A DNA stretch of 54,122 nucleotides, taken from positions 1 to 54,122 of the forward strand of contig CAMHNQ010000015.1 in NCBI GenBank assembly GCA_946186495.1, given 5' to 3'. The DNA is from an uncultured Bacteroidales bacterium. Its GTDB lineage: Bacteria > Bacteroidota > Bacteroidia > Bacteroidales > WCHB1-69. Below, in pieces: positions 190-11,989 of this stretch. The first letter of the stretch is position 1, and the number at the start of each line of letters is the position of its first letter. The translations under genes were made by a program, and so were the position numbers. Below the pieces are notes generated by a model, which was not told the origin of the DNA, did no database searches, and saw nothing but the letters and a program-made list of their open reading frames with translations.

Positions 190-1104
190 ATGGAACTCCA
201 AAATACACATTCCGATACCACCCCGCACCGCGCGGGCTTCGTCAATATCATCGGCAACCCCAACGTGGGCAAAAGCACGCTGATGAACCAGCTGGTGGGC
301 GAGAAGGTCTCCATCATGACCTCCAAGGCGCAGACCACCCGCCACCGCATCAAGGGCATCGTCAACGGCGACGACTTCCAGATCGTCTATTCCGACCTGC
401 CGGGCGTGCTCGACCCCGCCTACATGATGCAGAAGTACATGATGAAGTTCGTCACCGACTCGCTGCAGGACGCCGACATCATCCTCTACCTCATCGAATG
501 CGGCGAAACCCGATACAACGAGGAACTGGTCGAAAAAATCAACAAAATGGGAATCCCCGTCGTCTTCATTATCAACAAGACCGACAAATACACGGCGGAG
601 CAGGTTGCCGAATCGGAGGCACACTGGAAAACGATCTTCCCGGATGCCGATGTCTTTGCCATTTCCGCGTTGAAGGGAGTCAACATCGAGGCCGTGCGCA
701 ACCGCATCATCGAACTGCTGCCCGAATGCCCGCCCTACTTCCCGAAAGACGCCCTCACCGACCGTCCGATGCGCTTCTTCGTGTCGGAGCTCATCCGCGA
801 ACAGATCCTTCTACAGTATAAGAAGGAAATCCCCTACAGCGTAGAGGTGGTGGTGGAGAGCTACAAGGAGGAGCCTGAAATTGTACGGATAGCCGCGACC
901 CTCTACGTGGAGCGTTCCACGCAGAAGGCCATCATCATCGGCAGCAAGGGCTCGGCCATCAAGAAATTGGGCACCGACGCGCGGATGTCCATCGAGGATT
1001 TCCTGCAAAAGCACGTCTATCTCGACCTGTCCGTCAAGGTCCTCAAAGACTGGCGCAACAACGAGCTGCAGATGAAGCGTTTCGGCTATTCGTTAGGAGA
1101 TTGA
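190..1104 (+). CDS. era: GTPase Era, 16S rRNA maturation
   Basis: Era is an essential GTPase that binds the 3' end of 16S rRNA and helps 30S subunit assembly. The 304-residue length is normal. The G1 P-loop GNPNVGKST is at residues 22-30, the G4 motif NKTD at 129-132, and the C-terminal KH RNA-binding domain carries the loop GSKGSAIKK. The G3 motif reads DLPG (69-72) instead of the usual DTPG, a small departure that keeps the essential Asp and Gly. It is the first gene of a same-strand run; the TerB-domain gene begins 21 bases after its stop codon, so the two may share a transcript. Identification is secure. Confidence 0.97.
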   Translation: MELQNTHSDTTPHRAGFVNIIGNPNVGKSTLMNQLVGEKVSIMTSKAQTTRHRIKGIVNGDDFQIVYSDLPGVLDPAYMMQKYMMKFVTDSLQDADIILYLIECGETRYNEELVEKINKMGIPVVFIINKTDKYTAEQVAESEAHWKTIFPDADVFAISALKGVNIEAVRNRIIELLPECPPYFPKDALTDRPMRFFVSELIREQILLQYKKEIPYSVEVVVESYKEEPEIVRIAATLYVERSTQKAIIIGSKGSAIKKLGTDARMSIEDFLQKHVYLDLSVKVLKDWRNNELQMKRFGYSLGD

Positions 1105-1125: not shown

Positions 1126-2748
1126 ATGACAGACAGCCGCCACAAAAGTCAAATCCCACTGAAATTTGAGAATCATATCATAAATTTAAGAGAAAACATA
1201 ATTCAGATGATGTCGGATCGGCAAAAGATTATAACCATTGTCATTGACTCCGGAAAGGACAATTCCGCTAATCTTTATCGTGACACCCCTCTCTCGGGTT
1301 CAAGCACATCTCCGAATTACGATGCTTCAGACATTCCGAAAGAAATCCGTGAAATGATGGAGCTCTATGATTTCAAAAACGCTTCGCTTTATCAAAAAAG
1401 CGTGAATTTTTACCGGCAAGGCAAGTTCATGGAAAACTATGAGGATGACTTTCCTTGGAAAGGGAAATTCCAACACTATTTCCCCACTTACCATGACCTG
1501 AACATACCGCAGCTGCGAGGCTACTTCACTTGGCGTACACGCCTGCGCAAAGGCGAATATCTGCCAATCCCCACCTCAATGGCATACATCTACATTTACG
1601 AACTGCTCAATGGCATCGGCACCTCCTCCGTGGAGGAGAGCCTGTGGCGGATGCAGGAGTTTGAAACGGAATTCCTCGAAACGGGCATCTGCGACCCGAA
1701 CATCCAGGACAATCTCCACCGATGGATGACAGAACTCGCCATTATCCACCAACTTCCCAAAAAAAAGGTACTCCACTATATCGATCCTTACGACATCCAA
1801 CTCACCCACTATCTGGAAATCCTGCGAAACCCCGCCAACCGGACCGATGATGAGATTTTCATGGCACTCCGCCATTTCTGGGAACGGAAGATTGAATCTT
1901 CCCCCGTCATCCGCATGGACGCGGTCGCCGGAAAGCATCTATTCGCGGAAGTCTGGAGGATCGCCTCGTCACAACCTCTCCAAAACGGCAAAGATCTCTT
2001 TACCAATTGCTTCGGGGAGCAAACGGAGTTCAGCTGGTATCCCCTTGCCAATGCCGTATATCTGGAGCGGCGCAATCTGACGGACATCTCCTATGAACTA
2101 AACAGTTGCCTGCGCTATCGCTACCACCATAACGCTTGGAACGAAGAAACGTTCAAAGAACTATATTTCAGAAAAGAAAAGATCAAAGAATTGGTACACG
2201 TCACAGACCTGATGCTCCGCAGATACCTGAAAAAATCCCCCTATCTCCGCGAAAAACCCGAAGAGGCGTGGGCAATCCCGTATGTGGAAGCGGTCATCGA
2301 GGCGGACAGACAGGCGAAAATCGAGGCTGCACGGCCGAAAATCGACATTGACCTAACCCGACTCGGCCAAATCCGTGCCGCCGCAGTCGTAACACGGGAC
2401 AGCCTGCTCACGGAAGAAGACTTGTTGGAGACAGGGGAAGAAAAGGTTGCGGAAAAAATCTCAGTTCCCGAGACGATGATGGCAGACGCGGACACCTTGT
2501 CGTTAGACCCGACTCTCAGAAAAATTGTAGCCGCCCTTTTAGAGGGCCGCCCCGTGCAAAAACTGATGGCTTCGAATCGGCTGATGCCCTCCATCGTCAC
2601 CGACACCATCAACGAGGCGTTTTTCGATGACATCGGGGACAACATCCTTGAATGCGAGGGGGAGAAGCTAAGCCTCGTAGAGGATTACATCGAAGATGTC
2701 AAAGCTATAATCAGAGGTCACGTAATCCATCAAGAGGTTGTGAGTTAG
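1126..2748 (+). CDS. TerB-N/TerB-C domain protein of a putative DNA-processing cassette
   Basis: A 540-residue soluble protein. The part from about residue 85 to 330 (basic and aromatic start, helical middle with the WFxWRxR-like stretch FTWRTRLRKGEYLP) resembles the TerB-N domain. The last 150 residues resemble TerB-C. No signal peptide or membrane segment is seen. From family knowledge, TerB-N/TerB-C proteins occur in tellurite-resistance-type and DNA-processing gene neighbourhoods beside P-loop ATPases and superfamily 2 helicases, which is what follows here. The role is unknown; a scaffold or sensor for the ATPase and helicase is an inference. It lies 21 bases after era and 81 bases before the ATPase gene. 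Domain names are recalled from sequence character, not searched. Confidence 0.75.
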   Translation: MTDSRHKSQIPLKFENHIINLRENIIQMMSDRQKIITIVIDSGKDNSANLYRDTPLSGSSTSPNYDASDIPKEIREMMELYDFKNASLYQKSVNFYRQGKFMENYEDDFPWKGKFQHYFPTYHDLNIPQLRGYFTWRTRLRKGEYLPIPTSMAYIYIYELLNGIGTSSVEESLWRMQEFETEFLETGICDPNIQDNLHRWMTELAIIHQLPKKKVLHYIDPYDIQLTHYLEILRNPANRTDDEIFMALRHFWERKIESSPVIRMDAVAGKHLFAEVWRIASSQPLQNGKDLFTNCFGEQTEFSWYPLANAVYLERRNLTDISYELNSCLRYRYHHNAWNEETFKELYFRKEKIKELVHVTDLMLRRYLKKSPYLREKPEEAWAIPYVEAVIEADRQAKIEAARPKIDIDLTRLGQIRAAAVVTRDSLLTEEDLLETGEEKVAEKISVPETMMADADTLSLDPTLRKIVAALLEGRPVQKLMASNRLMPSIVTDTINEAFFDDIGDNILECEGEKLSLVEDYIEDVKAIIRGHVIHQEVVS

Positions 2749-2829
2749 ATATTCCAAGAAAGTTGCAAACCCGACACGTTTCAACCCGAGGTGAGTGCAG
2801 CGAGCCTTGGGAACATATAACGAAATACT

Positions 2830-4161
2830 ATGAGCGAAGAAAACAGAAAAGTACCCAAAAGAATTTCCCAAACAGTACTCAACTCGCTGAAAGGCGGGGT
2901 GGTGCCAAGAATCGGGCTGCCCTACATCGCAGTGGGGCGCAAGAGCGAAATCGAAGCTCTGCTTCACGATGTTGATATCATCAGCGAAGGCGGCGCCTCG
3001 TTCCGCTTCATTGTGGGCCGCTACGGATCCGGCAAGAGCTTTCTTCTCCAGACTATCCGCAACTACGTGATGGACAAGGGTTTCATCGTCGCAGATGCAG
3101 ACCTTTCCCCTGAGCGGCGATTACAGGGTACGCGTGGGCAGGGGTTGGCCACCTACCGCGAACTCATCGGAAACCTCTCCACCAAGACCAAACCCGAAGG
3201 CGGTGCCCTGTCCCTTGTACTCGACCGCTGGATCAGCAACGTACAATCGGAAACCGTGCAAGAGACCGGTCTCGCGCCCGACGATCCGGCCCTCACCCAG
3301 GCTGTGGACCGGAAAATCTATGCCATCACCGCCTCCGTCAGCGAACTCGTCCACGGCTTCGAGTTCGCCAAGCTGCTCTCCGCCTACTACCACGCCTACG
3401 TGGAAGGTAACGACGAAATCAAAGCCAAAGTGACACGCTGGTTCAGAGGGGAATACAATTTGAAAAAAGAGGCTAAGGAGGAATTGGGCGTGAACATGAT
3501 CATCACCGACGACGACTGGTACGACTATCTGAAAATCTTCGCCACCTTCTTCCGGTTAGCCGGTTATACGGGCATGATGGTCATGATTGACGAGTTGGTG
3601 AACATCTTCAAGATCCCGAACACAATCACGAGGCAGTACAATTACGAAAAGATGCTGACCATGTACAACGACACGCTGCAAGGCAAGGCAAAGTATCTGG
3701 GCGTCATCATGTGTGCGACCCCGCAGGCTGTGGAAGACAAGCGACGGGGAGTCTATAGCTATGAAGCCTTACGCTCGCGGTTGGCCGAGGGCAAATTCTC
3801 ACGCCCCGGCGCCCGCGACCTGCTCGCGCCCGTCATCAGGTTGGAGCCGCTCACCGCCGAAGAGATGCTGGTGCTTTGCGAGAAATTAGCGCAGATGCAC
3901 GCCGACCTCTACGGCTATCCGCGACGCATCAGCACCGACGACCTCGTGACTTTCATCAAAGTGGAGTACGGCCGCATCGGCGCCGACCAGAACATCACGC
4001 CCCGAGAGGTTATCCGCGACTTCATTGAGGTGCTCGACTTGCTCTACCAGCACACGGAGATGTCGCTGTCCACCCTGCTCGAATCCAATGAGTTTAACTA
4101 CGCCAAAAGCGAAGCCGTAAGCAACGAAGCGGAGGATGGGTATCTGGAGTTCACGATATAA
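2830..4161 (+). CDS. BrxD-like P-loop ATP-binding protein (DUF2791 family)
   Basis: A 443-residue ATPase. The Walker A motif GRYGSGKS is at residues 63-70 and a Walker B strand VMIDE ends at 255. The overall arrangement, with RISQTVLNSLKGGVVPRIGL at the N-terminus and the acidic Walker B followed by a sensor region, matches the DUF2791/BrxD family found in type 2 BREX loci and in other helicase-associated modules. The biochemical role is unknown; it probably couples ATP hydrolysis to loading or regulating the neighbouring helicase. The helicase gene starts 11 bases downstream, so the two are almost certainly co-transcribed. None of the BREX core genes (pglX, pglZ, brxC) is in the window. Confidence 0.85.
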   Translation: MSEENRKVPKRISQTVLNSLKGGVVPRIGLPYIAVGRKSEIEALLHDVDIISEGGASFRFIVGRYGSGKSFLLQTIRNYVMDKGFIVADADLSPERRLQGTRGQGLATYRELIGNLSTKTKPEGGALSLVLDRWISNVQSETVQETGLAPDDPALTQAVDRKIYAITASVSELVHGFEFAKLLSAYYHAYVEGNDEIKAKVTRWFRGEYNLKKEAKEELGVNMIITDDDWYDYLKIFATFFRLAGYTGMMVMIDELVNIFKIPNTITRQYNYEKMLTMYNDTLQGKAKYLGVIMCATPQAVEDKRRGVYSYEALRSRLAEGKFSRPGARDLLAPVIRLEPLTAEEMLVLCEKLAQMHADLYGYPRRISTDDLVTFIKVEYGRIGADQNITPREVIRDFIEVLDLLYQHTEMSLSTLLESNEFNYAKSEAVSNEAEDGYLEFTI

Positions 4162-4172
4162 CCCTCAGCCCC

Positions 4173-6398
4173 ATGAACGTCTTCAACCGATACGCCCCTT
4201 TTATCCAAGACTATATCTACCGCTCCGGCTGGCAGACCCTCCGGGGCGTGCAGAATGCCGCCGGCGATGCCCTCTTCGGCACCGGCGACAACGTGCTACT
4301 CACCGCTTCCACCGCCTCCGGCAAGACCGAAGCCGCCTTCTTTCCCATCCTGACCCTCCTCGACGAAGATCCCTCGCGAACCGTTGGTGTGCTTTACATC
4401 GCACCGCTCAAGGCTCTCATCAACGACCAGTTCGAACGCTTGGACGAACTGTGCGAGGAGGCCGGCATCCGAGTCACACGGTGGCACGGCGACGTGGGGC
4501 AGACCCGCAAGCGGCAACTGCTGCGCAAACCCTCCGGCATCCTGCAAATCACCCCCGAGTCGTTGGAGTCGATGCTCATCAACAAGCACGCGGAAATCAC
4601 CGCCCTGTTTGGCGATTTGCGCTTCATTGTCATCGACGAGATTCACTCGTTGCTGCGCGGCGACCGCGGACTACAGACCTTTTGCCTTATCGAGCGGCTC
4701 TGCCGGATGGCAGGCTGCAATCCCCGGCGGGTCGGGCTTTCGGCCACCATTGGCAACCCAGAGGCGGCGGGAGAGTTCCTGGCCGCTGGCAGCGGACGTC
4801 GCACCGTTATCCCAAAGTTCGATGGCGGAAAAGAGGTGTGGCGGCTTTCCATGGAACACTTTTTCAACAGCGGACCGCAAGCGGACGAGGGGAAAGACAT
4901 CACGATGCAGAATCCGGCACCAGAGCCATCAAGCGACACGGCCCCGAAAGCCGCCGACCCTGGCATCGGCTATATTTTTGAGCATACAAGGGGTAAGAAA
5001 TGTCTGGTTTTCACCAACTCCCGTGAAGAATGCGAGACGGTGTGCCAGCAACTGCGGCAGTATTGCGAGGCGAACCACGAGCCCGAACGCTTCCTCATCC
5101 ACCATGGCAACCTGTCGGCCTCCTACCGGGAAAGCGCAGAGCAAGAGATGAAAGACGACAGCTCACTGATGTCAGTGTGCGCCACGGCCACTTTAGAGCT
5201 TGGCATCGATGTGGGACGCTTGGAGCGGGCCTTCCAGATTGACGCACCTTTCACGGTTTCGGGTTTCCTACAGCGTATGGGTCGCACCGGCCGTCGGGGC
5301 ACCCCCTCGGAAATGTGGTTCGTGATGCGTGAGGAACATCCCGAGGCTCGAGCCATGACACCGGAGATGATTCCTTGGTACCTCGTACAAGGCATCTCAC
5401 TGGTGCAGCTCTACATCGAAGAACGGTTTGTAGAGCCGCCACGCACCGACCGCATGCCTTACAGCCTACTCTACCACCAGACCATGAGCACCTTGGCCTC
5501 CTGCGGCGAGATGACCCCCGCAGAGCTGGCATCCCGCGTACTCTCCCTCTCCTGTTTCCGCCGCATCTCCCAAGACGACTACCGAATCCTGCTTCGTCAC
5601 CTCCTTGACAAGAACCATATCCAACGCACCGAAAACGGTGGTTTGATTCTCGGACTCCCCGGCGAACGCATCGTCAACAATTTCAAATTCTACGCCGTCT
5701 TCCAGGAAAATGTCGAATATACTGTCCGCACTGGCTCCGAACAGTTAGGCACTATCGTGAAGCCACCCCCACCGGGCGACAAAATCGCCATCGCAGGACG
5801 TGTATGGGCAGTTGATGAAGTTGACCACTTGCGACGCGAAGTTTGGTGCACTCTCGTAAAGGGCAACATTCCCGCCTATTTTGGCGACTGCGCCGGCGAT
5901 ATACATACGCACATTCTCGAACGTATGCGCGAAGTGCTGAAAGAGGACAACCGCTATCCCTACCTGATGCGTCACGCCGTGTGTCGACTGCAAGAGGCGC
6001 GGGACACTTTCCGGAAATCCGGCATGGCCGACCGTCCGCTCATACATTTAGGCGGCAAAATGTGGGCGCTGTTCCCTTGGCTGGGCAGCTATGCCTTCCT
6101 CGCATTGGAGCGACTGTTGAAGATAAAATGCGCTAAAATATTGGGTATTAAAGGCTTAACTTCTTCCCGCCCATACTATATGCAATTCACGATGCAGGCA
6201 AGCGAGGAAGCGTTCTACCGCGCAGTGGCCGCAGAGTCCGCCAAAGCTTTCGACCCGCTGGAACTGGTTTATCCTGAAGAGGTACCCCTGTTCGAGAAAT
6301 ACGACGAACATATTCCTCCCGAATTGGTCAGGAAAGGCTTTGCCCATGGGATTCTTGATGTGGAAGGGATGCGTCGGCGTGTACTCAGTTGGATATAA
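4173..6398 (+). CDS. Lhr-like superfamily 2 helicase (BrxHI-like)
   Basis: A 741-residue DEAD/DEAH-box helicase. Motif I TASTASGKTE is at 44-53, motif II DEIH at 155-158, motif III SAT at 190-192 and motif VI QRMGRTGRRG at 367-376. The region after 380 resembles the winged-helix and C-terminal extension of Lhr-type helicases. From family knowledge such enzymes move 3' to 5' on single-stranded DNA and unwind DNA or RNA-DNA duplexes; BrxHI of BREX type 2 belongs here. It is the last gene of the three-gene cassette: 96 bases separate it from purB, which has its own promoter. A lone Lhr repair helicase is an alternative, but the partner genes argue for a dedicated module. Confidence 0.9.
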   Translation: MNVFNRYAPFIQDYIYRSGWQTLRGVQNAAGDALFGTGDNVLLTASTASGKTEAAFFPILTLLDEDPSRTVGVLYIAPLKALINDQFERLDELCEEAGIRVTRWHGDVGQTRKRQLLRKPSGILQITPESLESMLINKHAEITALFGDLRFIVIDEIHSLLRGDRGLQTFCLIERLCRMAGCNPRRVGLSATIGNPEAAGEFLAAGSGRRTVIPKFDGGKEVWRLSMEHFFNSGPQADEGKDITMQNPAPEPSSDTAPKAADPGIGYIFEHTRGKKCLVFTNSREECETVCQQLRQYCEANHEPERFLIHHGNLSASYRESAEQEMKDDSSLMSVCATATLELGIDVGRLERAFQIDAPFTVSGFLQRMGRTGRRGTPSEMWFVMREEHPEARAMTPEMIPWYLVQGISLVQLYIEERFVEPPRTDRMPYSLLYHQTMSTLASCGEMTPAELASRVLSLSCFRRISQDDYRILLRHLLDKNHIQRTENGGLILGLPGERIVNNFKFYAVFQENVEYTVRTGSEQLGTIVKPPPPGDKIAIAGRVWAVDEVDHLRREVWCTLVKGNIPAYFGDCAGDIHTHILERMREVLKEDNRYPYLMRHAVCRLQEARDTFRKSGMADRPLIHLGGKMWALFPWLGSYAFLALERLLKIKCAKILGIKGLTSSRPYYMQFTMQASEEAFYRAVAAESAKAFDPLELVYPEEVPLFEKYDEHIPPELVRKGFAHGILDVEGMRRRVLSWI

Positions 6399-6446
6399 GT
6401 CCGACAGTGAATTTCAAAATCCTTCGGAGAATCGCTATGAATGCTT

Positions 6447-6473
6447 TTTGTTTGGGAATATTGTGTACCTTTG
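6447..6473 (+). promoter_or_regulatory. Promoter of purB
   Basis: TTTG at 6447-6450 and TACCTTTG at 6466-6473 match the -33 and -7 elements, though the spacer of 15 is shorter than the usual 19 or so. The -7 box ends 21 bases before the purB start codon and separates it from the helicase cassette. Confidence 0.6.
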
Positions 6474-6494
6474 CCGCGAAATTAATAAACGATT

Positions 6495-7790
6495 ATGATA
6501 CCACGCTATTCGCGTCCGGAAATGAGCGCCGTCTGGACTGAGGAAAACAAATTCGGTGCCTATTTGAAAGTGGAAATCGAAGCTGCCGCTGCATGGAGCA
6601 AACTCGGGGTGATTCCCGCTGAAGATGTGGAGAAATTACGCCAAAAAGCCACCTTTGATGTCCAGCGAATCTATGAGATTGAGAAAGAAACTCGGCATGA
6701 CATCGTGGCTTTCACCCGCACGGTGAGCGAAAGCCTCGGCGACGAGAAAAAGTGGGTACACTACGGCCTCACCTCCACCGATGTGGTCGATACTGCCAAC
6801 GGCTATCTCTTGCGGCAAGCCAACAATATCCTGCGCAAAGACCTCCAGCGGTTTACGGAAATCCTCAAGAAAAGAGCTTTCGAGTTCAAAGACACGCCCT
6901 GCATCGGACGCACGCACGGGGTTCATGCCGACATCACCTCCTTAGGGCTGAAATGGGCCCTCTGGTTCGAGGAGATGCGACGCAACGTGGAACGTTTCGA
7001 AATGGCCGCCGCCGATGTGGAATGCGGCAAAATCAGCGGCGCCGTAGGCAACTTCGCCAACACCCCGCCGTTCGTGCAAGACTACGTGTGCGAACAACTC
7101 GGCATCCACTCCGCCCGAATCTCAACCCAGGTGTTGCAACGCGACCGCCACGCACACTACATGGGCACCCTCGCGCTCATCGCCTCCACCATGGAGCAGA
7201 TGGCCATTGAGGTGCGCCACTGGCAACGAACAGAGCTCCGCGAGGCCGAGGAGGCTTTCGGTAAAGGCCAAAAAGGCTCTTCCGCCATGCCTCACAAACG
7301 AAACCCCATCGGCAGCGAGAACATGTGCGGCTGCGCCCGTATTCTACGCGGCTATATGGTCAGCGCCTACGAAAATATCCCGCTCTGGCACGAACGCGAC
7401 ATCTCCCACTCCTCCGCCGAACGCATCATGCTCCCCGACGCCACCATCCTGCTTGATTATATGCTCAACAGGTTCGGCAACATCCTCGAAAACCTTGTCG
7501 TCTTTCCTGAAAACATGTTGAAGAACATTTATTTGACCCATAAAGTCATCTTCGCGCAACGTGTCATGACCGCCCTCATCAACAAGGGTCTCTCCCGCGA
7601 AAGCGCCTATGACCTCGTCCAACCCATCGCTATGAAAGCATGGTTCGAAGGACAAGACTACAGAGAACTGCTTGCCCAAAACGAAAACGTAATGTCCCAC
7701 TTCACCCCAGACGAACTCGACCAATGCTTCACCCTTGACTACTACCTCAAACAAGTCCCCACCATCTTCGAAAGAGTGTTTGACAAATGA
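6495..7790 (+). CDS. purB: Adenylosuccinate lyase
   Basis: PurB removes fumarate from SAICAR and from adenylosuccinate, two steps of purine synthesis. The protein has 431 residues. The fumarase/aspartase-superfamily signature [15 protein letters not shown] is at 261-275 with the mobile-loop serine, and the catalytic His lies in GRTHG (139-142). TSTDVVDT near 93-100 is the substrate-binding segment. It is transcribed from its own promoter directly upstream. The following upp gene starts 86 bases on, so the two nucleotide genes may be co-expressed, but no second promoter or terminator is evident between them. Confidence 0.97.
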
Positions 7791-7876
7791 GGCTTGAGAC
7801 GCATCACTTGAAACGTGTGACTTAAAAATCTAACATCTCCCATAATCACAAATTATCAACCATTAAAAACCGCATT

Positions 7877-8533
7877 ATGAACAACTTACACGTTTTGGGA
7901 AGTAAAAACTCCCTGTTTAATGAATTTATCGCGGAAGTGCGAAGCACGGAAATACAGACCGACAGTATGCGATTCCGCAGAAACCTTGAACGCATCGGCG
8001 AAATATTCGCCTACGAAATCAGCAAACACCTTCCCTATGAGAACCAGGAGGTGACCACCCCGTTGGGCATCACAAATATCCCGCGACTGATAAAGCAACC
8101 GGTACTCGCCACCATTCTCCGCGCCGGCCTGCCCCTCCACCAAGGCATGCTCAACTACTTCGACCACGCCGAGAATGCCTTCATTTCCGCCTTCCGAAAA
8201 TATTATAAGGACGGGACCTTCGAAATCCAAATCGACTATCTGTCGTCGCCTGATTTGGATGACAAAACCTTGATTCTCTGCGACTCGATGTTGGCTACGG
8301 GACGGTCATTCGTGCTGGCATATGAAGAGTTGCTGAGCAAAGGGGAACCTTCACACACACACATCGTGAGCCTGATTGCCAGCAAAGAGGGACTAAACTA
8401 CGTGATGAGCATCTTACCCGCCGACAGCTGTACCCTCTGGATTGGCGCAGTTGACGAGGAACTCACCGCGCATTCCTTTATCGTGCCCGGCCTCGGTGAC
8501 GCCGGCGACCTTGCCTATGGAATCAAAGAATAA
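7877..8533 (+). CDS. upp: Uracil phosphoribosyltransferase
   Basis: Upp salvages uracil to UMP using PRPP. The 218-residue protein has the PRPP-binding loop CDSMLATGRS at 135-144, the FRAGLP-like segment LRAGLPLHQG near 81-90, and the uracil-binding C-terminal stretch PGLGDAGDLAYG. The usual DPMLATG core reads DSMLATG here. It is six bases upstream of an MBOAT gene, so it heads or sits inside an operon with two envelope-modification genes, an unusual partnership that may reflect only shared transcription. Confidence 0.95.
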   Translation: MNNLHVLGSKNSLFNEFIAEVRSTEIQTDSMRFRRNLERIGEIFAYEISKHLPYENQEVTTPLGITNIPRLIKQPVLATILRAGLPLHQGMLNYFDHAENAFISAFRKYYKDGTFEIQIDYLSSPDLDDKTLILCDSMLATGRSFVLAYEELLSKGEPSHTHIVSLIASKEGLNYVMSILPADSCTLWIGAVDEELTAHSFIVPGLGDAGDLAYGIKE

Positions 8534-8539
8534 CTCAGG

Positions 8540-9958
8540 ATGGTATTCAGCAGTAATGTTTTTCTTCTCCTCTTCCTGCCCCTTTTCCTGATTTGCTACT
8601 TTACATGTCCGAAAAACTGGCGGAATCCTGTCCTTCTTCTGTTTTCTGTCGTTTTCTACGCATTTGGAGCCCCTACTTTCGTATTGCTTCTGTTAACATC
8701 CGTTATCATCAACTATTATTTGGTAAAATGGATGTATTCTTCCGAAAACCAGCTATATAGAAAAGCTCTATCAGGATTGGCCATATTGTTAAGCTTAAGC
8801 CTCCTATTGTATTTCAAGTACGCAAATTTCTTCGTTGACAACCTCAACACACTACTCAACTTCCTTGGACTGAAAACGTTCGCTTTCACGAAAGTGCTGC
8901 TTCCCATTGGCATCTCCTTTTTCACCTTCCAATCCATCACTTACGTCGTTGATGTCTATAGGGACGACAATCCGCCCATGGATCGTCTGACGGACTATAT
9001 GCTCTACATCCTGATGTTCCCGCAACTTATTGCTGGGCCTATCGTACGGTATCGCGACATCGCGGGGGAAATCCGTCACCGGGAGAGGAACTGGCCGGAA
9101 ATCCTGCAAGGATTCTATCGTTTTGTGATAGGCCTCTCCAAAAAAGTGCTTATAGCGGATATTATTGGTATTCAAGTTGATAAGCTTCTTATTGGCGACC
9201 TGTCAATTATGGGAACGGGTACGGCTTGGGTGACCATACTGGCCTATACTATGCAGCTATACTTCGATTTTTCCGGCTATTCCGATATGGCCATCGGACT
9301 GGGCAAAATGATGGGTTTCCATTTTCCCGAGAACTTCGATAATCCCTATAACTCTTCAAGTGTCAGCGAGTTCTGGCGAAGATGGCATATCACATTGGGA
9401 ACTTTCATGCGCAACTACCTGTACATACCCCTGGGCGGAAACCGCTGCTCCAAACCCAGAATGTATTTCAACCTTTGGGTGGTGTTCCTCCTCTCAGGCT
9501 TTTGGCACGGAGCAAGTTGGAACTACGTCGTCTGGGGGGCCTACCATGGATTCTGGCTCGTAATGGAACGGATAGGATTGGGGAAAGTCTATGAAAAGAT
9601 AGGAAAAATTCCCGCTGTCTTCATCACTTTCATCATTGTGACTGTGGGTTGGGCTATCTTCAGAATTGAGAATCTGTCGGATGCAGCCACGTTCATCTCC
9701 AGGCTCTTTGCTTTCGACTTCCGCTCGTTCGCGCCGATTAACAATGCCCATTTCTATACGATGCTTGTACTGGCGCTCTCCTTCGCATTTCTGACCCTGC
9801 TCCCCGTCGGAAAAAAATTACAGGATACCGTCTTCTACACCGAACTCTCAAAGAAACAGCATCTTGTGGCATGGTCCACAAGTATTGTCCTCTTTCTGTT
9901 CTGCTTAGGAGCACTCAACGCCACAGGGTTCAGCCCTTTCATCTATTTCCGGTTCTAA
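8540..9958 (+). CDS. MBOAT-family O-acyltransferase (AlgI-like)
   Basis: A 472-residue polytopic membrane protein with about ten hydrophobic segments. Family hallmarks are YFDFSGYSDMAIGLGKMMGF (241-260), FWRRWHITL with His 283, and SGFWHGASWN with the invariant His 323. From family knowledge, AlgI, PatA and DltB-type MBOAT proteins pass acyl groups, usually acetyl, across the cytoplasmic membrane to a periplasmic partner that acylates a polysaccharide or peptidoglycan. The partner here is most likely the SGNH/DHHW-like protein that starts 9 bases downstream. The acceptor polymer cannot be told from sequence; no alginate synthesis genes are present. Confidence 0.93.
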   Translation: MVFSSNVFLLLFLPLFLICYFTCPKNWRNPVLLLFSVVFYAFGAPTFVLLLLTSVIINYYLVKWMYSSENQLYRKALSGLAILLSLSLLLYFKYANFFVDNLNTLLNFLGLKTFAFTKVLLPIGISFFTFQSITYVVDVYRDDNPPMDRLTDYMLYILMFPQLIAGPIVRYRDIAGEIRHRERNWPEILQGFYRFVIGLSKKVLIADIIGIQVDKLLIGDLSIMGTGTAWVTILAYTMQLYFDFSGYSDMAIGLGKMMGFHFPENFDNPYNSSSVSEFWRRWHITLGTFMRNYLYIPLGGNRCSKPRMYFNLWVVFLLSGFWHGASWNYVVWGAYHGFWLVMERIGLGKVYEKIGKIPAVFITFIIVTVGWAIFRIENLSDAATFISRLFAFDFRSFAPINNAHFYTMLVLALSFAFLTLLPVGKKLQDTVFYTELSKKQHLVAWSTSIVLFLFCLGALNATGFSPFIYFRF

Positions 9959-9967
9959 ACCTATGCC

Positions 9968-11380
9968 ATGATGAAATATTTTCATAAGTTTCTATTTATC
10001 AATATAATAACGGTCATGCTAATTCTGATGACCCAGACATTTACCGGTTTTATCCCTATGCCAACGCTAAATGGAGTCACCCCAGACACCGAAAAGCCGA
10101 AGCCGACCATCAAAAACTGCATCGATGGCACTTTCCAGACGGATGTTGAGGCACATTTGCGGAAACATTGCGGCTTTCGCGAAGTGCTGATACGGGCATA
10201 CAACCAATTTGTGTGGAGCTGTTTCAAAGAGACTAACAATTCCACCATCGTACGGGGAAAGGACAACTGGCTATACGAAGAGGTGTATGTCCGGGACCAT
10301 TACGAGAGCTACATGTACAAATATACTGACGATACCGCCACCATGAGGAGAACATTCGAGACAGAAGCCCTTCGCCTGTGGAAAGTCCAGAAATTGCTGG
10401 AAGAGTACGGCATCCATATTTTTGTCAACATTAACCCTGGCAAAGATGTCATCTATCCCGAATACCTCCCCGCCAACAGATCTTACACCAGACCTGAAGG
10501 TCTCCGCGCCTATGAATTCTATAAAAAGCGTTTCGATGAACTTGGCATCAACTACATTGACAATGTCGCCATTTTCAAAACTATCAAGGACACTGTGGAT
10601 TATCCGTTATTTTACAAGACAGGCATCCATTGGAGCAGCATAGCCGCTGTCTATGTCTTTGACTCTATCGTTCGTTACATAGAAACTATAGGGAACCAGA
10701 ATCTTAACACCTATAGGATTGGCGATAAATACACTGCCGGGCCACGGTTTCCGGACGATGACCTTGAGAAAGTACTCAATTTGGCCTTTCGAATCAAGTC
10801 CCCACCCTACTGTTATGTGAATGTCAGCATGGAAAAAGACACCTCTGCCGTCAAACCGTACCTTACCACCATTGGCGATTCCTATTATTGGAACTTTGCC
10901 TACTACCTCCCCATACAAGAGATTTTTCGAAAAGCTCCTTTCTGGTATTACGGCTATATGGTCTATGATGACGGGACTCATCCGAGTGGCGCCGTACTGG
11001 ACCTGGATTTGGAAAAGGAGTTGATGCGCACGGATTACATCATGCTCAATTACGGTACGCTCCAGCTCTACGAGCTTGGAAGCCAAATCCTGCCTTATGC
11101 GCTACTTCACTTATGTTACGACAAAGCAACCATTGACTCCTTGGCACACGATGTTATGGAAACCATCAAAAATTACAATCCGACCCTATACGAAGAATGT
11201 GTCCGGTCTTCAAAAATCAACGGGAAAAGTGTAGAGCAGAACTTGTATGACAATGCCATGTACCTGCTCAGGACAGAGCCGGAGACGTACCTTAAAGAGC
11301 TTCAGGGCGAGCAGTTACCCACTTCGCGGAACAAAGATTTGAAAGCGATACGGGAATCGTTGGCCAAATCTTCCTCGTAA
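9968..11380 (+). CDS. AlgJ/AlgX-like SGNH acetyltransferase or esterase (DHHW family)
   Basis: A 470-residue protein with an N-terminal hydrophobic anchor or uncleaved signal (residues 8-28) and a periplasmic domain. GIHWSS at 219-224 resembles the His/Trp motif of AlgJ and AlgX, and TIGDSYYW near 301-308 resembles their GDS nucleophile block. These proteins take an acetyl group from an MBOAT partner and place it on a sugar polymer. It is translationally close to the MBOAT gene (9-base gap) and probably forms one acetylation machine with it. The C-terminal 150 residues are family-specific. ATGATG at 9968 gives two possible adjacent starts. Confidence 0.85.
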   Translation: MMKYFHKFLFINIITVMLILMTQTFTGFIPMPTLNGVTPDTEKPKPTIKNCIDGTFQTDVEAHLRKHCGFREVLIRAYNQFVWSCFKETNNSTIVRGKDNWLYEEVYVRDHYESYMYKYTDDTATMRRTFETEALRLWKVQKLLEEYGIHIFVNINPGKDVIYPEYLPANRSYTRPEGLRAYEFYKKRFDELGINYIDNVAIFKTIKDTVDYPLFYKTGIHWSSIAAVYVFDSIVRYIETIGNQNLNTYRIGDKYTAGPRFPDDDLEKVLNLAFRIKSPPYCYVNVSMEKDTSAVKPYLTTIGDSYYWNFAYYLPIQEIFRKAPFWYYGYMVYDDGTHPSGAVLDLDLEKELMRTDYIMLNYGTLQLYELGSQILPYALLHLCYDKATIDSLAHDVMETIKNYNPTLYEECVRSSKINGKSVEQNLYDNAMYLLRTEPETYLKELQGEQLPTSRNKDLKAIRESLAKSSS

Positions 11381-11406
11381 CTGGCCTCCCCTTCTTTGGA
11401 ATCTGA

Positions 11407-11835
11407 TTACGCATCGTATGTCTTTGCCTTTCCGTTTGACGGTATATCACCGAAAAACCGCTGCTGACTTTCGATATCTTCAGAATCAATCAACCGCCGT
11501 ATCTTGACGGAGATTCCTAATTCTTCACATTCCTTCTTGAAGTTGTGTACCACTTTGTTGAAATTTTCATTGTCAACGAATCTTTCCTCCTCTCTTTCTT
11601 CAATCACCTTGTTTTCAAAATGTTCTGCCTCAAACTTCTCCTTGAAAACCAAAAATTTCTTCATGACATGCGCAAAGCAGGGATCCATTTCCATCTCCTG
11701 CTTTTTCTCGACCAAATCCTCAATGGCAATCATCACTTCGATGAACTTCACAATAAACGGACTCCAGGCCTTCATCAAATCATCGTTTGATGCGCTGATT
11801 TTTTTTTCTTCTTCTTTGTTGTTTTTCTCTTTCAT
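11407..11835 (-). CDS. Small charged cytoplasmic protein of unknown function
   Basis: A 142-residue, highly charged, Lys/Glu-rich protein without signal peptide or membrane segment; mostly predicted helix. I do not recognise the family. It converges on the AlgJ-like gene and has its own promoter (11856-11887), which supports it as a real gene, as does the absence of a competing frame. Its reading strand differs from all neighbours between 0.2 and 22 kb. Confidence 0.65.
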   Translation of the reverse strand: MKEKNNKEEEKKISASNDDLMKAWSPFIVKFIEVMIAIEDLVEKKQEMEMDPCFAHVMKKFLVFKEKFEAEHFENKVIEEREEERFVDNENFNKVVHNFKKECEELGISVKIRRLIDSEDIESQQRFFGDIPSNGKAKTYDA

Positions 11836-11887: not shown

Positions 11888-11989
11888 TGTTTTTTTTAGT
11901 TTCATTACAAACTACATATCACTGATTTATAATATTTCCTTAACAAATAATTGTTAAGGAAAAGTGTCTGGTTTCGCAGTTTTTTGGAA

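Follow-up and report, generated by a model that had tools for sequence, protein, structure and literature searches.

The window analysed here, a stretch of 54,122 nucleotides (nt) from an uncultured Bacteroidales bacterium (assembly GCA_946186495.1, contig CAMHNQ010000015.1), carries near its start three open reading frames that very probably form a complete Shango (SngABC) anti-phage system. The frames lie close together on one strand, as the preliminary description of this DNA, made from the sequence alone, had reported; the gaps between them measure 81 and 11 nt. The same description had called a TerB-domain protein, an ATPase and a helicase, and these calls were borne out by a profile search in Pfam, which matched all three families (TerB_N and TerB_C, BrxC_BrxD, DEAD and Helicase_C).

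1126–2748, forward strand: sngA, 540 amino acids (aa), with TerB_N (residues 66–257) and TerB_C (392–526); short form without the N-terminal extension
2830–4161, forward strand: sngB, 443 aa, AAA+ ATPase of the BrxC/BrxD family, with conserved P-loop G63–S70 and D254–E255
4173–6398, forward strand: sngC, 741 aa, superfamily 2 (SF2) helicase of the Lhr/BrxHI type, with conserved motifs around K51–T52, D155–E156–x–H158, S190–A191–T192 and Q367–R374

The Shango cassette and its proteins

For each of the three proteins the top PADLOC model is a Sng model, with 230 bits for SngA (spanning residues 51–529), 627 bits for SngB and 924 bits for SngC, against second-best scores of 173 bits for BrxD and 426 bits for BrxHI. 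Because the Sng models win over BrxD and BrxHI, and because the NCBIfam BrxD equivalog reaches only 175.8 bits on SngB against a cut-off of 350, the cassette is assigned to Shango. The earlier guess of a stand-alone phage-defence module was therefore right, while its companion, a nameless offshoot of bacteriophage exclusion (BREX) systems, gives way to a published three-gene system. The copy is a real, intact and already known defence system, found in a further host and at a further genomic place.

The Pfam matches are strong for the ATPase, SngB scoring 557.7 bits (cut-off 22.2) on PF10923 BrxC_BrxD, which we take to be the former DUF2791. SngC scores 104.6 bits on DEAD and 66.1 bits on Helicase_C, and the winged helix after the helicase core (WH_Lhr) scores 18.9 bits, under its cut-off of 27. 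The best solved relatives of the SngC profile are 5v9x and 7lhl, each titled 'ATP-dependent DNA helicase' and presumably Lhr proteins. The P-loop of SngB is intact, K69, D254 and E255 being invariant in 33 sequences, and so are the helicase motifs of SngC, in which K51, D155, E156, H158 and R371 are invariant in 34. No nuclease domain was found by Pfam in the three proteins of the window.

SngA matches TerB_N (73.9 bits) and TerB_C (69.5 bits), both above cut-off. None of the 52 SngAs scanned matched the central TerB domain PF05099 at E ≤ 0.01, and no NCBIfam model matched the SngA of the window at E ≤ 0.1. Its predicted structure (mean predicted local distance difference test score, pLDDT, 85.8) is chiefly helical, with strands at about residues 300–342 and a helix-hairpin-helix end. 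Among 61 aligned loci the best-conserved stretches are residues 81–180 and 481–520, approximately, and two length classes can be told apart, with start codons picked mechanically: a short form (26/61), with at most 87 residues before the first conserved TerB_N position, and a long form (35/61), with at least 142. The window protein, with 70 such residues, is of the short form. The extension of the long form is YjbR-like by profile in 11 of 52 members at E ≤ 0.01, those matches that were examined singly all falling below the Pfam cut-off, and the extension profile matches PSPTO_3016 (E 3.8e-15). One of the 52 SngAs matches a nuclease of the RecU (Holliday junction resolvase) type (E 4.6e-16); this protein was not among the 20 scanned singly. 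In a same-genus operon (L111, genome G020), sngA carries one in-frame stop (TAG).

Linkage, evolution and spread among relatives

Related loci were found through SngB, and 80 of the 89 confirmed were kept. The three genes had been expected to stay together in related genomes, and mostly they do: by tblastn, 65 of the 80 loci hold all three in the order A-B-C on one strand, with both gaps at most 150 nt in 54 of the 65. Of the 15 incomplete loci, eight run into a contig end on the side where a partner gene is missing (L058, L060, L067, L069, L071, L075, L079, L080). Both the shared order and the ratios of nonsynonymous to synonymous change (dN/dS), which lie far below 1 for each gene, are beyond chance.

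The three proteins evolve unevenly. Out of 89 loci (the window, the 80 and eight more), 63 passed a filter that required all three genes to fall in set length ranges and to be free of internal stops; after removal of two duplicates, 61 loci were analysed, SngA being open at a contig end in L007 and L047. Mean pairwise identity is 38.2% for SngA, 76.9% for SngB, a figure flattered by the SngB-based search, and 75.0% for SngC, which played no part in selection. The identity of SngA is below that of both partners in all 1830 pairs; between the window and L002, for instance, it is 51%, against 88% for SngB and 87% for SngC. Median dN/dS is 0.166 for sngA, 0.053 for sngB and 0.075 for sngC, as measured on the 38 pairs with all dS < 1.5 among 60 with SngB identity of at least 88%; these pairs are not independent, most coming from one group of eight close loci. 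By this measure all three genes are under purifying selection, and SngA, although constrained, changes roughly three times as fast as SngB for the same amount of silent change. Wholesale swapping of SngA was rejected as the main cause of its divergence, since its pairwise identities follow those of SngB (Spearman 0.88) and SngC (0.94). Nearest neighbours agree between SngA and SngB in 23 of 61 loci, between SngA and SngC in 31 and between SngB and SngC in 28; with agreement in so few loci, some mosaicism among the genes is likely.

Several loci depart from the compact layout. At L109:7088–10118 (G026, of the same genus), genes for a type II restriction enzyme and two methyltransferases lie between sngB and sngC, and the G006 operon, closely related to that of G026, is without this insert; at L015:11380–15583, the same place holds two genes, one of them for type IIG restriction-methylation. 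Between sngA and sngB, 1.8–3.6 kb intervene in L005, L008, L009, L015, L016, L023, L028, L033 and L079, and in two same-genus genomes (L111, L113) the gap is filled with telomere-like GGGTTAA / AAACCCT repeats. In L043 and L065, a relative of SngB (79% and 75% identity) has at least 3.3 kb on each side in which no SngA or SngC was found. On a Sulfitobacter plasmid (L122:6015–8739), genes annotated as a PD-(D/E)XK nuclease and a UvrD-type helicase directly follow Shango.

Of 40 genomes of the genus, 8 carry SngC, and of 295 genomes sampled from the order, 4 carry SngB; both counts include the window genome, and one of the four SngBs reaches only 38% identity. The eight genus carriers hold Shango at seven sites, flanks being shared by G012 and G017 alone, in a comparison for which G009 was judged on one side only and G026 offered little sequence on one side. 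At six carriers, up to four flanking genes apiece were scanned with Pfam, not PADLOC, and are mostly ordinary. Pairs of genes that enclose Shango outside the window genome include a C69 peptidase with a zinc peptidase, a GH20 gene with a tRNA synthetase of the glutamyl/glutaminyl type, and a guanylate kinase with a gene of the ATPase_2 type.

Further afield, the TerB-ATPase-helicase order is annotated on plasmids of Azospirillum, Paenibacillus and Sulfitobacter (three records opened), and in Azospirillum the three proteins match the Sng models. Relatives of SngB, all below 60% identity and with BrxD not separated out, occur in 688 of 72,556 plasmid records. A search of 50,697 phage records with a limit of E ≤ 1e-10 gave no match, and no viral contig was confirmed by a pattern search reaching close relatives only. 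Related operons also occur in records labelled as other phyla, with SngB and SngC about 80% identical. In a tree of 61 SngB sequences, phylum labels, which were taken from record titles, mostly those of metagenome bins, need 8 changes for 7 groups (minimum 6; 13 rows unlabelled), and a Sutterellaceae sequence is nested in a starred group whose remaining rows are Bacillota. When the labels are shuffled, the mean rises to 12.7 changes; the tree thus tracks phylum as well, which speaks against heavy mixing. Altogether, the tree supports, without proving it, some transfer between phyla.

The genomic site behind era

The cassette lies between two housekeeping genes, in the following setting.

190–1104, forward strand: era, left neighbour; similarity to relatives ends at its stop codon
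1105–1125, forward strand: era-sngA junction, 21 nt, with purine-rich AAAGGAG ahead of the ATG
6399–6458, no strand assigned: sngC-purB junction; similarity to relatives' purB loci starts between 6459 and 6494
6459–11820, no strand assigned: purB-upp-MBOAT-algX (forward) and the small gene listed below (reverse), downstream of Shango
6495–7790, forward strand: purB, right flank of the cassette
11407–11835, reverse strand: small gene, 142 aa, with no relative in the loci read

In seven relatives (L091–L097), era is followed by a gene for a small acidic protein and then by pta, with other genes in between in L092 and L095; two more distant relatives (L098, L099) have era without this order. DNA similarity between the window and the seven ends at the last bases of era (1102 or 1104) and returns near 11,821, shortly before pta and an ftsX-like gene, or only at 11,972 in the case of L092. 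The intervening 10.7 kb or so comprise Shango, purB-upp-MBOAT-algX and one small gene and, given where similarity breaks off and returns, were inserted or moved there, whole or stepwise. The 142-aa gene was considered as the counterpart of the small gene behind era in the relatives and rejected, as direct comparison shows no relation; it is therefore counted with the inserted block. In each of the 10 purB loci that were read, purB and upp lie side by side, and in four of them (L102, L104, L105, L106) MBOAT and algX follow; the window genome has one purB match. No inverted or direct repeat of at least 14 nt was found within either junction region of the cassette.

The view that the cassette had settled in a housekeeping locus does not hold as a conserved placement. 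A survey of era-purB neighbourhoods found that, among 39 genus genomes matching both genes, only the window genome and G035 have them on one contig, in G035 in opposite orientation, and that the genus carriers use seven sites. A conserved era-purB placement was accordingly rejected, the seven relatives having pta near era where 10.7 kb intervene in the window.

The motif TAnnTTTG, which we take to be the Bacteroidetes promoter element, has four matches on the same strand in the first 12 kb. It is present upstream of era (122) and of purB (6466), the latter match, TACCTTTG, falling inside the similarity to relatives' purB loci in most of them, and it is absent from 900 to 1300, around the start of sngA. 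At seven other loci (six genus carriers and G037) the motif lies no more than 150 nt from the start of sngA as called in five, is missing there in L111 and L116, and G009 is cut. Promoter and terminator scans stayed near shuffled counts (5 vs 3.2 and 7 vs 6.7). Since sngA lies 21 nt behind era and has no recognisable promoter of its own, the simplest reading is that Shango is probably co-transcribed with era.

Mechanism, alternatives and known systems

An earlier report described Shango in Escherichia coli; it is said to be that of Millman and colleagues from 2022. The system is also found in the defence hotspot cDHS1 of Pseudomonas aeruginosa PA14, and the available text of PMC10250203 describes, for the PA14 system placed in PAO1, a modest 10- to 100-fold drop in plating of many but not all phages, and cites the E. 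coli report for about 10-fold effects on two phages. By analogy with these two hosts, the cassette of the window would act against phages. The open-licence literature searched yielded no statement of the mechanism of Shango. According to the text of PMC12278908, SngC belongs with BrxHI, DruE and DpdJ to what may be a separate clade of SF2 helicases, and PMC12839542, whose main text does not mention Shango, describes BrxD as an ORC-Cdc6 AAA+ ATPase, a proposed loader or activator of BrxHI, with which it forms a tightly linked dyad in type 2 BREX. On this model, SngABC would restrict phages through SngB, an ORC/Cdc6-like AAA+ ATPase, which would load or license SngC, the helicase of Lhr type, on phage DNA or intermediates of its replication, and SngA, through TerB_N and TerB_C, may recognise a signal of infection or deliver the block. 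The fast change of SngA would then reflect evasion by phages. That SngA is a fast-evolving specificity or effector subunit, N-terminal module included, on a conserved SngB-SngC motor passing between distant bacteria is a tentative suggestion, more doubtful than not.

Several observations weigh against this picture. The loader and sensor roles rest on homology. Of the 50 matches listed for the predicted SngB model (mean pLDDT 78.8), all weak, with template modelling scores of about 0.25–0.4 on the query, 20 are ORC/Cdc6-type chains and 13 RuvBL-complex chains, which count in favour of the loader role, and 8 are others; against it, 9 are mitoribosomal proteins, one of them being the top match and the only one at E ≤ 0.001 (E 1.6e-4). 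The SngB profile matched no solved chain by sequence. For SngA, no solved structure in the PDB matched at E ≤ 0.001, and since the best matches, LysR-type winged-helix regulators, reach only E about 0.6, a DNA-binding TerB_C end is a hint only. With gene-wide dN/dS well under 1, positive selection on SngA is not shown. Seven of the 80 loci (L009, L037, L042, L043, L045, L048, L065) lack a partner despite at least 1 kb of room (973 nt in L009) and count against strict linkage. No phage assay of a Bacteroidales Shango was found in a single search of the open-licence literature.

Lhr helicases act in DNA repair, and the Lhr-like helicase with its loader could be a housekeeping module for repair or replication forks that serves the cell and not phage defence. 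The mostly ordinary flanks at genus carriers, the purifying selection and an SngB tree that clusters by phylum better than shuffled labels would all suit such a role. Yet a housekeeping module would hardly be confined to 8 of 40 genus genomes and 4 of 295 in the order, at differing sites, nor be expected to need 8 label changes where 6 would do, to travel on plasmids in the same three-gene order or to have relatives active in published anti-phage assays, and we consider it very unlikely. The join of era, Shango and purB might instead be a chimera of the draft assembly, which has 130 contigs; the window starts at contig base 1, and era and purB lie apart in nearly all relatives. However, beyond the block the window goes on with pta and the ftsX-like gene, which lie close behind era in seven relatives; a chimera would therefore need false joins on both sides that restore the same locus, which makes it highly improbable.

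A remnant or mobile part of type 2 BREX, the brxD-brxHI dyad with a TerB gene added, is suggested by the BrxD and BrxHI second-best models and by the tight linkage of that dyad, but the Sng models outscore these by a factor of 2 to 4. No BREX gene was found among the scanned neighbours (era, purB, upp, MBOAT, algX, pta; scan to 17.2 kb, PglW not searched). A separate type-1-like BREX with BrxC, PglX, PglZ and BrxL lies on other contigs of the genome (C47 and C74; L124:4231–14616 and L120:86–4491), one contig carrying BrxA, BrxB, BrxC and PglX close to its end, the other PglZ-BrxL at its beginning. The statement that the BREX core is missing thus stands for the scanned neighbourhood and falls for the genome. 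BREX membership, degraded or otherwise, was rejected on these grounds together with the missed BrxD cut-off; being already contradicted, it retains next to no probability. In this BREX, a TmtA-like gene follows PglX.

For a Shango system, a difference in rate that reflects a division of labour would make SngA the part to swap for specificity and SngB with SngC the motor to purify, and the uneven rate of SngA is the one lead worth following. If the pattern of seven sites amid mostly ordinary genes is wider, copies of this kind would escape any search confined to defence islands.

Among known systems, Shango of P. aeruginosa PA14 and E. coli resembles the window cassette in combining a TerB-type protein, an ATPase and a DEAD/DEAH helicase, the PA14 proteins being compared by description (PMC10250203); the PA14 copy sits in a defence hotspot, whereas that of the window lies behind era. 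Shango is also among the systems reported in rumen genomes in the text of PMC13356809. The central TerB domain PF05099 is listed for Shango in the text of PMC10952713, whereas the SngA of the window is short and has no match to it. Type 2 BREX shares a homologous, adjacent pair of ATPase and helicase, BrxD and BrxHI, from which the window differs by its additional TerB protein, a BrxD score under cut-off and the lack of core genes among the scanned neighbours. Hachiman (HamAB), as described in the text of PMC12278908, likewise has an SF2 helicase as the central motor of a defence system, but its HamB is Ski2-like and is paired with the nuclease HamA, whereas SngABC of the window has no Pfam nuclease domain. 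In its proposed specificity role, SngA would bear a loose likeness to the S subunit of type I restriction systems.

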